A stretch of DNA of 64,000 nt from Sipunculus nudus (taxonomy: Eukaryota > Annelida > Sipuncula > Golfingiida > Sipunculidae). Below the pieces are notes generated by a model. The model had not been told where the DNA came from. It worked only from the letters and a program-made list of their open reading frames with translations, and made no database searches. The translations under genes were made by a program, and so were the position numbers. Shown piece after piece: positions 2 through 62,658 of the stretch. The DNA lies in assembly GCA_026874595.1 (NCBI GenBank), contig CM049307.1, positions 42,540,362 to 42,604,361 on the forward strand. The letters run 5' to 3'. Within the stretch, counting starts at the first letter, position 1. The number at the start of each line of letters is the position of its first letter.

Positions 2-224
2 GTGAGTGGTTCTGCTCTGTATGTCAGACCAGTGTCCATGATGGCGGTACAAACCACCAGACCCACGGATGTGTGGTACAGGACACCCAGCACTGTAGCT
101 CATGCTGACCCCAGCAAAGGGTGGGGGATGGCAGGGCTGCCAGCCAGGCCTGTCAGTAGTCATGTCAGCCAGAGCAGAAGCATGACATATACTAACCACT
201 TACAGCAAGTTAACACAGAACAAG
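2..224 (+). CDS. SORBS1: SORBS exon, left edge of window (partial)
   Basis: Open from base 2 with no stop and ending at the donor CAAG|GTACTT. It ends after one base of a codon (g), and the exon at 3422 begins with the two bases at, so the join gives Asp in frame. The translation ([20 protein letters not shown] and on) is Ser/Thr/Pro-rich without a recognised domain. The acceptor lies outside the window. The phase match is the main support; a chance open frame remains possible. Confidence 0.65.
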
Positions 225-61700: not shown

Positions 61701-62658
61701 GTCTTCTGCTCTTCTCTTCATGATAAAATGCTGTTATATCATATATAACATAAACAGGAGACTCCACATGTATGAAAAAAACTGATATATAAAGGATATA
61801 TAGGTAGAGTGAACATAGTTTAAGCTGCATCTTATTCTTAATTACTCTTTTATTCTTTCCTTCTGATAAATCAGAAGGACCGCTACGATATTTCGTAAGA
61901 ACATATTCAAGGCTGATTATGGAGCCCGGGTCACCTGGTGTGTAATTCTCAAGCCTTGCACCAAGGCAAATCATGCAGCAGAGTATTATAGTAGTAGAAG
62001 CCCCCTACTTTGTTAACAGTCTTGTCAATAACGAAATGCGGCTGGTGTTATATGCACAGAAACAAAGTAAAACAAAACAAAAGGTGTCCTATTTGTTTTG
62101 TTTAAGTACATGTGTTTATAATACGATATAGACCAAATAAAAAACTCAAGACCCCAAATATTCTTTTGAAATAACAACCTGAATGTAAGAGGAACAAAAT
62201 AGTAAGTCACTGGAGGTTTATATATACCAATGACGGACGAGAGCTGCATGCATCCAGCTTTACAGCAGCAGAATTCTGCTTCCCAGATTCCAAAGGGTCA
62301 TCTTCCGGTGGTCCTGGAAACACCTTATCACACGGTTGGTAACTCTTGGAAACTACCCGATTTACCTGAGCTACTGGGCTAACGATTTATTCTCCGATAG
62401 GATGAAGTGGTCCAAGTATTTCTTGTCGTGGTCAAATGATTTGGAAGGGTTAGTAAACGATGAATTGGAGCTGGTAGCCAGGGCAACGGGAGTTTCTGAT
62501 GATTTATAAATATCTGGATCGTAATGGACCAAGGTGACTCGACAACAACAAGAGATACTCACCTTGGCGATGATGAGCGGTTCCTCCTCCCCGCCGAACA
62601 AACGGAACCCCCATGGTCCCCCGCCTTCAATACGGATATCATGCCTCTCCGCGGCCAT
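34291..62658 (-). CDS. SYNPO2: PDZ synaptopodin-2/CHAP-like actin-associated protein (5 exons)
   Basis: Join on the minus strand: 62658-62563, 45858-45707, 44345-43543, 36398-35424, 34727-34291. All phases agree; 2,463 nt give 820 residues plus TAA. PDZ at about 6-84, split by intron 1: PWGFRLFGG carboxylate loop, then AKLRKRSKAQEAGLQEGD and LTINGNSC. AK(I/L)R..SKA..GL.EGD...INGN.C is the pattern of synaptopodin-2/myopodin and CHAP, Z-disc proteins binding alpha-actinin, filamin and actin. Residues 83-350 are Pro/Ser/Gln-rich. Residues 351-675 contain VYADSSFYNDPSGKYPTIEE and two basic motifs, 393-408 and 527-542 (KMFVKRKERSMKWT, KMFNKRKARSEKYT), resembling the LFAKR..R..KYV motif of synaptopodins. 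The C-terminus is Pro/Gly/Arg-rich. No LIM or membrane segment. The alternative is an ALP/ZASP (PDLIM) relative without LIM. Family placement rests on memory of motifs, not on a search. Confidence 0.85.
34728..35423 (-). other. PDZ gene intron 4
   Basis: Contains a (TA)n at 35,291-35,318 and otherwise nothing recognised. Confidence 0.6.
35424..36398 (-). CDS. SYNPO2: PDZ gene exon 4 (duplicated basic motifs)
   Basis: 975 nt, acceptor TGTTTCAG, donor CCAG|GTAAAC. The first two bases complete Lys. It encodes VYADSSFYNDPSGKYPTIEE, a helical EQIKMARKVAMSLT, basic motif 1 (RGHKMFVKRKERSMKWT), the acidic EESEESEDE, W-P words, an acidic helix, and basic motif 2 (GKMFNKRKARSEKYT). A Pro-rich tail follows with short repeats (PPVNTGKPPVNTAMQPVN). 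The overlapping plus-strand frames are shadows. Confidence 0.95.
36584..38423. mobile_element. 1.84-kb CACTG-ended DNA transposon in a (TA)n tract
   Basis: Left end CACTGAAAATCAAAAATGTG; right end, inverted, CACTGAAAACCAAAAATGTG, with (TA)n directly outside both ends (36,538-36,583 and 38,424-38,458). The subterminal 250-350 bp at each side are packed with AACACAT/ATGTGTT words in both directions. CAC-ended TIRs, a T/A-only target and dense subterminal repeats are features of the CMC group (EnSpm, Mirage, Chapaev). The middle has no transposase frame. Confidence 0.75.
40228..40620. repeat. ~180-bp tandem array, about 2.1 units
   Basis: ACTTTTTTTCGC(G/A) starts recur at about 40,234, 40,418 and 40,597. 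Between them GCAGATATTGAC, CAGATCATGACCAGTTACAG, GTTTCGC and ACATAGAAAATTTCATGAAA appear in the same order. Confidence 0.75.
43543..44345 (-). CDS. SYNPO2: PDZ gene exon 3 (Pro/Ser/Gln-rich)
   Basis: 803 nt, acceptor CCTCTTGCAG, donor AAAAGGA|GTAAGT. The first g completes Arg. Disordered and Thr/Pro/Gln-rich. FHVSKV occurs twice (once as GFHVSKV, once as QFHVSKV), and W-P words recur (WAPGKG, WQPSSG, WTPPPP). An acidic patch EEEPEPEEPMEPSPEKDED precedes SLV-type Ser-rich text. It ends SPTGWGKR. Confidence 0.93.
44346..45706 (-). other. PDZ gene intron 2
   Basis: No repeat or extra exon recognised. Confidence 0.5.
45707..45858 (-). CDS. SYNPO2: PDZ gene exon 2 (rest of PDZ)
   Basis: 152 nt, acceptor CTTTACAG, donor CTCAG|GTTAGT, phase 2 out. 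It begins LRKRSKAQEAGLQEGDTL, continues LTINGNSCQGMSHGNAMG and ends SLNLVVLR, completing the PDZ fold. Homology runs straight through the junction with exon 1, so no exon is missing between them. Confidence 0.93.
47663..47711. repeat. (GA)n microsatellite
   Basis: About 24 uninterrupted GA units, next to the SINE pair. Confidence 0.95.
47790..48030 (-). mobile_element. tRNA-like SINE family, copy B
   Basis: Same unit as 7,271-7,516. On the minus strand GGGTTCGAATCCC is a perfect tRNA B box. Relative to copy C it lacks about 20 bases covering the AAAAGCACGCTTCATTAGCG stretch near the A box. The long plus-strand frame over this area is repeat translation. Confidence 0.75.
48060..48233 (-). mobile_element. 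tRNA-like SINE family, copy C (truncated)
   Basis: Direct repeat of copy B with intact boxes (minus strand AGTGAAGCAGTTGGTAC and GGGTTCGAATCCC). The outer part is cut at 48,233 where a TIR element begins. Confidence 0.75.
48236..48610. mobile_element. ~375-bp TIR MITE abutting the SINE
   Basis: Ends GCTTTCACAGACCTTGATTC...and, inverted, GCTTTCACAGACTTTGATTC, alike for about 40 bases. No coding. It directly follows truncated SINE copy C. Confidence 0.75.
49286..49828. mobile_element. 543-bp TIR MITE with TA target
   Basis: Ends CTATAGTCCGTTTCACCACC and, inverted, CTATAATCCGTTTTATCCCC. Both continue to CCACCTGTTTTTTG, with TA flanks on each side. Consistent with a Tc1/mariner-type non-autonomous element. 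Confidence 0.8.
49840..50205 (+). repeat. Dispersed repeat, copy 2
   Basis: Homologous to 19,795-20,180 in the last SORBS intron. It lies directly after the MITE at 49,286-49,828. Confidence 0.7.
51618..51625. promoter_or_regulatory. CRE palindrome TGACGTCA
   Basis: A full cAMP-response-type palindrome in intron 1, within TGATGACGTCATCGAA. Single site; function inferred only. Confidence 0.3.
51990..52680 (+). mobile_element. Solo-LTR-like block
   Basis: Begins TGTGACACCCCCGCC and ends GTGTTACA, the TG...CA form with short inverted ends. Inside are a TATA box (TTATATAAGG, about 52,224-52,233), a GAGA/GCAGCAG leader and AATAAA (about 52,599) near the 3' part, the order expected of U3-R-U5. 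No second copy or internal gag-pol was seen. A 5-bp target duplication was not found, which weakens the call. Confidence 0.5.
53997..54053. repeat. (TA)n microsatellite
   Basis: Nearly pure TA tract. Confidence 0.95.
55179..55200. promoter_or_regulatory. Two CRE palindromes 14 bp apart
   Basis: TGACGTCA at 55,179-55,186 and again at 55,193-55,200, with a half-site TTACGTCA at about 55,083. Paired full CREs suggest a CREB/ATF-responsive element or an alternative promoter in intron 1. Confidence 0.35.
56106..56282. repeat. Tandem duplication plus (CT)n
   Basis: AACACATAAATAC(C/T)TTGT(T/A)AAA...CAGT(T/C)AGTCTCTCTCTC occurs twice (about 56,110 and 56,171), followed by a CT-rich microsatellite. 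Confidence 0.7.
56658..56782. repeat. Twin (TA)n tracts around a 48-bp unit
   Basis: (TA)n at 56,658-56,692 and 56,741-56,782 enclose CAAAGCACATGCGCTGTTC and on. The arrangement parallels 32,366-32,705. Confidence 0.85.
56876..57086. repeat. GGATCC-ended dispersed repeat, copy 3
   Basis: Starts GGGGATCCAGGATTTTGG and ends GAACCCTCTGGATCCGCCACTG with an A-run/G-run junction between. Same family as the 1,012 and 21,270 copies. Confidence 0.7.
62563..62658 (-). CDS. SYNPO2: PDZ gene exon 1 (start of PDZ)
   Basis: 96 nt from ATG to donor GCCAAG|GTGAGT, phase 0. It encodes MAAERHDIRIEGGGPWGFRL then FGGEEEPLIIAK. The PDZ starts within a few residues of the Met, as in the SYNPO2 and PDLIM families, which supports this start. 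Confidence 0.9.

Follow-up and report, generated by a model that had tools for sequence, protein, structure and literature searches.

SORBS lies tail-to-tail with a synaptopodin-2-type PDZ gene in Sipunculus nudus, probably as part of an old ALP/Enigma-SYNPO2-SORBS linkage

Two convergent genes

The window analysed here, meaning the whole stretch of 64,000 nucleotides from the annelid Sipunculus nudus (C2:42540362-42604361, in a genome assembly of 1.43 Gb and 153 contigs), covers on the plus strand the 3' portion of a SORBS gene and on the minus strand a complete five-exon PDZ gene. Positions are given in window coordinates unless preceded by C2. The two genes converge tail-to-tail with their coding ends 14,596 bases apart, and with both structures read, the convergence and the 14-kb distance stated in the original prediction were borne out. 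No gene was seen between them among open frames of at least 100 amino acids, no gene finder having been applied to that gap, and scans for tRNAs and Rfam families across the window gave no matches. Chance is no sensible account of two intact multi-exon genes.

Between window base 2 and the close of the third SH3 domain, ten exons or exon parts of the SORBS gene share a single frame, with a GT-AG junction at every step. Since window base 1 falls inside a 5.6-kb SORBS exon (C2:42534983-42540585, start approximate), of which positions 1-224 are the 3' end, the gene does not start at base 2. Next come a proline-rich linker exon (3422-3592) and two charged linker exons (4560-4669 and 9970-10055), the last of which precedes the SH3 domains. 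SH3-1 (13540-14218) is formed by exons 13540-13683 and 14104-14218 and SH3-2 (16271-16990) by exons 16271-16381 and 16828-16990; a linker exon with a YDQRAQ-type peptide repeat (18335-18977) leads to the last exon (19520-19694), which carries SH3-3, and the open frame closes at 19691, before the stop codon at 19692-19694. Pfam recognises the three SH3 domains, the C-terminal trio of the SORBS family, at 149.2 bits, and the best solved chains in the PDB are those of SORBS1 (2mox with 136.5 bits across SH3-1 and SH3-2, 2lj0 with 92.5 bits on SH3-3) and vinexin, SH3-2 being matched by SORBS1/ponsin and vinexin chains. Upstream of the window, two plus-strand exons joined by hand for Pfam (C2:42510369-42510565 and 42512515-42512590, span 42510369-42512590) hold the SoHo domain, with 38.0 bits to PF02208 Sorb against a cut-off of 27. 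SORBS1-3 and fly CAP likewise have SoHo followed by three SH3 domains; they differ in that the SORBS gene here may have an ALP-like PDZ spliced to its N-terminus, as discussed below. In the linker exon, the stretch 18500-18720 is an in-frame tandem of AQYDQR, in about five copies, beside similar SPYDQ units.

The PDZ gene runs from 62658 to 34291 on the minus strand and encodes 820 amino acids; all phases fit and all junctions are GT-AG. Exon 1 (62563-62658) carries the start codon and the first PDZ part with the PWGFRL motif, the protein opening with MAAERHDIRIEGGGPWGFRLFGG, and exon 2 (45707-45858; 152 nucleotides, phase 0 in and phase 2 out) carries the second part. Exon 3 (43543-44345) is a low-complexity linker, probably disordered, exon 4 (35424-36398) holds two calsarcin-type motifs followed by myozenin-type motifs, and exon 5 (34291-34727) encodes a proline/glycine-rich C-terminus and the stop. 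Tested alone, the PDZ scores 47.2 bits in Pfam (cut-off 23.2), and it is the sole Pfam domain above cut-off when the whole protein is scanned. Neither of two marks of ALP/Enigma proteins appeared in the 820 residues: a Pfam scan found no LIM domain, and PF15936, which we take to be the ZM motif, was not among the families up to an E value of 10.

A synaptopodin-2-type PDZ with a calsarcin-type tail

For the family assignment, 13 PDZ sequences, the window PDZ included, were scored against each other; the letters of the others were typed and are partly unverified, as are the comparison letters used below for SYNPO2, SYNPO2L, MYOZ1-3 and some PDLIM proteins. The window PDZ scores 82.6 bits to SYNPO2L, with 54% identity, and 64.2 bits to SYNPO2; against the seven PDZs of PDLIM1-5, PDLIM7 and LDB3 the scores are 45.0-53.2 bits, and Zasp52 (39.6), SHROOM3 (37.8) and PSD-95 (24.5) follow. 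SYNPO2 and SYNPO2L score 77.2 bits against each other, so the window PDZ matches this family as well as its members match one another. In an 11-row tree, from which two outliers were excluded, the window PDZ groups with SYNPO2 and SYNPO2L with a support of 99/99, and in a tree that adds the genome's own ALP-type second exons it stays in that group with 97/86. Judged by these scores and trees, whose reference letters are partly unverified, the gene is of the synaptopodin-2 type and not an undifferentiated ALP/synaptopodin ancestor, and the PDLIM and SYNPO2 families were already separated when a PDZ of this type existed. The idea that such a gene is ancestral to both PDLIM and SYNPO2 was thus rejected by the PDZ trees: the placement within the ALP/synaptopodin PDZ group, as first proposed, stands, and a position before the PDLIM/SYNPO2 split does not. 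What the gene can tell about the relation of the two families changes in the same way, as it does not represent a pre-split ancestor but shows a distinct SYNPO2-type gene outside vertebrates, which is likewise implied by the existence of a fly orthologue.

The tail of the protein points to the same family. Exon 4 (324 amino acids) contains, in the order found in myozenins, RGHKMFVKRKER and RSGKMFNKRKAR, which are the calsarcin-type motifs A and B, then MSPWEAAMEDPE and GYNKVAKGW. It matches Pfam Calsarcin (PF05556) at 30.1 bits, above the cut-off of 24, in three stretches, of which only the best has a reported position, and a 361-amino-acid open frame reaches 31.4 bits. Among pieces of the exon, motifs A and B together score 28.2 bits, motif B with SPWE 26.0 and motif B alone 17.7; for reference, the typed tail of human SYNPO2 scores 36.0 and typed MYOZ1 353.9 bits. 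A model built from MYOZ1-3 gives exon 4 a score of 21.9 bits, the best of 2000 shuffles reaching 7.5, over four stretches that again follow the myozenin order (calsarcin A, calsarcin B, SPWEAAMEDPE, YNKVAKGW). When 200000 shuffles were searched with patterns chosen post hoc, the KMF pattern occurred in 5, SPWE in 81, GW in 16 and SPWE with GW in none. A PDB search with exon 4 returned nothing credible. Running PF05556 over the whole genome gave 0 matches and missed the window's own exon too, so that this result is uninformative on other calsarcin genes.

The closest known systems are SYNPO2 and SYNPO2L (myopodin and CHAP), with fly CG1674; SYNPO2 and SYNPO2L share with the window protein an N-terminal PWGFRL PDZ, a proline-rich tail, repeated G-x-x-M/L-F-x-x-R calsarcin-type motifs and a structure without LIM. 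The window gene differs from these two in having SPWExA and [FY]N[RK]xAxGW motifs, both of which the typed SYNPO2 and SYNPO2L lack; with the MYOZ model these two score 29.1 and 25.7 bits, neither through an SPWE or a GW stretch. Myozenins lack a PDZ and carry a PDZ ligand at the C-terminus (ETEEL, ESEDL or ESEEL). The calsarcin, SPWE and FNxxAxGW motifs of the myozenins (calsarcins or FATZ, MYOZ1-3) have the same order as here, all within exon 4, but the window protein starts with a PDZ, ends in GGFCDM and has only partial Calsarcin stretches, and so does not belong to the myozenin family itself. PMC11753949 describes a calsarcin domain in synaptopodins, whose helix is shared by myozenin, and gives CG1674 as the orthologue in the fly. 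That a synaptopodin relative can carry a calsarcin motif is therefore already known, whereas the additional SPWE and GW stretches in myozenin order were not encountered among the literature matches listed.

Several results weigh against this reading of the PDZ and the tail. When SHROOM3 is included it falls inside the SYNPO2 group on a long branch, the four-member branch receiving 96-97/99, although a clade of SYNPO2 proteins without it is not rejected (p value of the approximately unbiased test, p-AU, 0.204). Because the alignments are short (51-85 columns kept) and branches long, only the split uniting the window PDZ with SYNPO2 deserves weight, and the SYNPO2, SYNPO2L and some PDLIM letters behind it are unverified. 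In the tail, the Calsarcin score falls to 18.4 bits, below the cut-off, when the whole 820-residue protein is scanned, and the MYOZ model then gives 1.7 bits. The fragment with SPWE and GW only and that with motif A only have no Pfam match, and the SPWE and GW stretches alone score 1.0 and -3.5 bits with the MYOZ model. When phmmer compared the gene's tail with typed SYNPO2 and SYNPO2L, both full scores were negative, the best stretches reaching 8.1 and -3.0 bits, and the myozenin motif NRxAxPF, present in both typed proteins, is not found in the window gene.

MYOZ2 adjoins SYNPO2, and MYOZ3 adjoins SYNPO. According to PMC11477451, MYOZ1 adjoins SYNPO2L on 10q22. These pairings fit the idea that myozenins may descend from a module such as exon 4, which we offer as a hypothesis because the SPWE and GW stretches are weak alone. 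No proposal of such an origin was among the matches listed in full-text searches on myozenins, the available text of PMC1781342 makes no mention of synaptopodin or myopodin, and a term search of PMC9751615 gave no hit.

An upstream ALP-like PDZ and the linkage along C2

In the 200 kb upstream of the window we found a second PWGFRL PDZ, ALP-like, which lies upstream of SORBS and also on the plus strand (exon 1 at C2:42405889-42405981, exon 2 at 42466775-42466926). In both PDZs of the locus the first intron follows IAK, in phase 0, and exon 2 measures 152 nucleotides and exits in phase 2. The upstream PDZ is closest to LDB3 (73.0 bits), followed by SYNPO2 (66.7) and the window PDZ (58.0); the tree places it with the SYNPO2 group (90/83), membership of ALP is not rejected (p-AU 0.122), and on these comparisons it may belong to either group. 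Typed PDLIM1 and Zasp52 queries, run against the window and the 200 kb preceding it, found no LIM match at E values up to 1. The probable tail of the upstream gene (C2:42405889-42505000) has two SKGMAMFLSQREKNRDP repeats. The likeness of these SKGMAMF repeats does not go beyond the motif, the pattern, chosen post hoc, occurring in 8 of 20000 shuffles; the tail matches neither the myozenin model (-3.8 bits) nor Pfam Calsarcin.

A PDZ survey of the genome, in which 150 of 218 candidates were scored, gave 108 hits. Of these, 41 from contig C61 upwards were excluded for their bacterial look, and the remaining 67, all chromosomal, were read. An ALP-type split PDZ exon, defined as 149 or 152 nucleotides with phase 0 in and phase 2 out, was accepted in ten of the 67, one on C6, one on C14 and eight on C2 (at 27.20, 29.67, 29.73, 39.43, 42.47, 42.59, 49.29 and 49.36 Mb). 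Two further pattern matches were dropped by eye: L002 on C2, an ordinary PDZ running past the exon end, and L055 on C13, whose frame is not the PDZ. C2 makes up 6.9% of the assembly and holds seven of the other 57 PDZ hits (Fisher p 3.5e-5); with clusters counted in place of single exons, five of seven ALP-type loci are on C2 (p 2.9e-5). Linkage beyond the two genes, which supports the original prediction, was thus found at two scales, in the ALP-like PDZ on the other side of SORBS and in the eight of ten ALP-type exons on C2.

The excess on C2 has to be read with some caution. The exon definition was fixed after both PDZs of the locus had been viewed, and the PDZ list is incomplete, since 150 of the 218 candidates were scored. 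The score of an ALP/SYNPO2 model alone does not cleanly separate the ten accepted exons (27.3-48.3) from rejected loci on C4 and C11 (38.9, 37.0 and 36.8). The excess may also be partly local duplication, given the pairs at 29.67/29.73 and 49.29/49.36 Mb; local duplication covers part of it, not all.

Some neighbouring features were seen along the way. The close exon pairs span C2:49291120-49356610, on opposite strands and pointing apart, and C2:29667490-29735100. Downstream of the window, a small secreted or ER protein (MPDQLKCDACRAIAFQVSSQ), perhaps MZB1-like, may start at C2:42612124, and C2:42615679-42620999 is a tandem array with five copies of one 75-codon frame, spaced 1274 bases apart. 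The 41 excluded hits (C61-C119) are on small contigs, within open frames some 290-550 codons long, many of which occur on more than one contig; they are probably bacterial DNA, of DegP-like proteases, in an animal assembly.

Ancestry of the neighbourhood and its meaning

Our favoured reading, which we consider probable, is that the 3' part of SORBS and the whole SYNPO2-family gene belong to an old ALP/Enigma-SYNPO2-SORBS linkage that is here still mostly on one chromosome. Inside this genome, the evidence supports such a linkage among SORBS, ALP-type and SYNPO2-type genes, which was likely inherited from the bilaterian ancestor, as inferred from one invertebrate genome. The linkage would then have been copied in vertebrates by genome duplication, giving the 4/5/8/10 paralogon. 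In human, PDLIM1, PDLIM3 and PDLIM2 lie beside SORBS1, SORBS2 and SORBS3, with each PDLIM placed on the 3' side of its SORBS neighbour in the same orientation, and SYNPO2 shares chromosome 4 with SORBS2 as SYNPO2L shares chromosome 10 with SORBS1. PMC8600819 places PDLIM3 and SORBS2 within one 4.5-Mb deletion at 4q35. Literature searches on a SORBS-PDLIM or SYNPO-MYOZ neighbourhood mostly gave no match, or nothing on these genes among the matches listed.

Two other accounts of the neighbours were weighed. The linkage could be particular to the lineage, because one invertebrate genome was examined: a rearrangement would have put the SYNPO2-type gene beside SORBS, and the human PDLIM-SORBS and SYNPO2 neighbourhoods would have arisen independently. 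The order and orientation here, which differ from those in human, favour this account, as do the close C2 pairs that suggest local duplication; the ALP-like PDZ flanking SORBS on its other side and the eight of ten ALP-type exons on C2 speak against it, and we hold it to be unlikely. That the PDZ gene derives instead from a PDLIM (ALP/Enigma) gene by loss of the LIM domains is very improbable. It does share the PWGFRL start and the split-PDZ exon with ALP-type genes (PDLIM1-5, 7, LDB3 and Zasp52 have the PWGFRL PDZ in common with it), and its best solved structures are PDLIM2, PDLIM5 and PDLIM7. The PDLIM and LDB3 chains that lead the PDB results could not have given way to a SYNPO2 PDZ, as none is among the 34 chains, for which reason a family name taken from the PDB only was rejected; the PDZ scores and trees lead to SYNPO2/SYNPO2L, and the calsarcin motifs are present.

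Compatible with the old linkage is a further possibility, to which we give somewhat less than an even chance, that the upstream ALP-like PDZ makes up the N-terminal part of SORBS itself and gives, in at least one isoform, a PDZ-SoHo-SH3x3 protein. The PDZ may belong to the SORBS gene because its exons are readable in one frame into SoHo. After PDZ exon 2, the linking exons on the plus strand of C2 are 42486182-267 (E2b, the first), 42488811-972, 42493149-409, 42499490-873, 42503276-731 (E6), 42504146-222 (E6b) and 42504719-935 (E7), joined in phase, so that nine exons run from the PDZ start codon to E7 without a stop, and the two hand-joined exons extend the frame through SoHo. The resulting 721-amino-acid frame has both PDZ (55.3 bits) and Sorb (32.6 bits) in Pfam, E2b scores 30.8 against a maximum of 14.6 over 12 control stretches, and the E7-E8 join reads SPTVTLLQKNRE, resembling typed SORBS1 NPTIVLLQHNRE. 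Against this, the chain is predicted from genomic DNA, the acceptors of E6b and E6 are weak (1.8 and 1.1), an exon screen gave no E6b candidate, E6 and E7 also continue to a stop in frame, so that each could be a last exon, and 61 kb separate PDZ exons 1 and 2. At three penalties of 18-26, gene models favour one gene by 0.3-3.4 bits only, and the best two-gene models place their split not between PDZ and SoHo but farther on, close to the window or within it; with a penalty of 10, in a model whose introns were filled with many spurious exons, two genes win by 10 bits with a split near exon 1. No gene model reproduced the hand-made chain exactly. A PDZ-SORBS arrangement was not named among the literature matches listed; if true, it would be a new domain arrangement.

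Joining these elements, one may picture the ancestral bilaterian locus as an ALP-PDZ-SORBS gene tail-to-tail with a SYNPO2 gene whose exon-4 module gave rise to myozenins, the vertebrate PDLIM-SORBS and SYNPO-MYOZ neighbourhoods being its broken halves. We regard this picture as quite improbable; if true, the halves would have arisen by splitting and genome duplication.

As to function, SYNPO2L binds alpha-actinin, bundles actin and is located at the Z-disc, according to PMC11352367. By analogy, the SYNPO2-type protein here probably acts in the same way through its PDZ and basic KMF motifs. Its PDZ would engage a partner such as alpha-actinin, the tail would bind and bundle actin at Z-discs or dense bodies, while the SoHo and SH3 domains of SORBS would tie those actin structures to vinculin, the membrane and adhesion sites, roles proposed from the respective families. 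Neighbouring genes that converge and have related roles in muscle could be regulated together.

Many of the vertebrate Z-disc scaffold genes PDLIM, LDB3, SYNPO, MYOZ and SORBS are on four related chromosomes. If one invertebrate chromosome retains such a set, their co-location is older than the vertebrate genome duplications, and its retention, if true, raises the question of whether it is kept up for shared muscle regulation. The exon-4 module provides a concrete hypothesis for the origin of myozenins, and the locus as a whole suggests that a muscle-scaffold neighbourhood, today spread across several human chromosomes, is very old.

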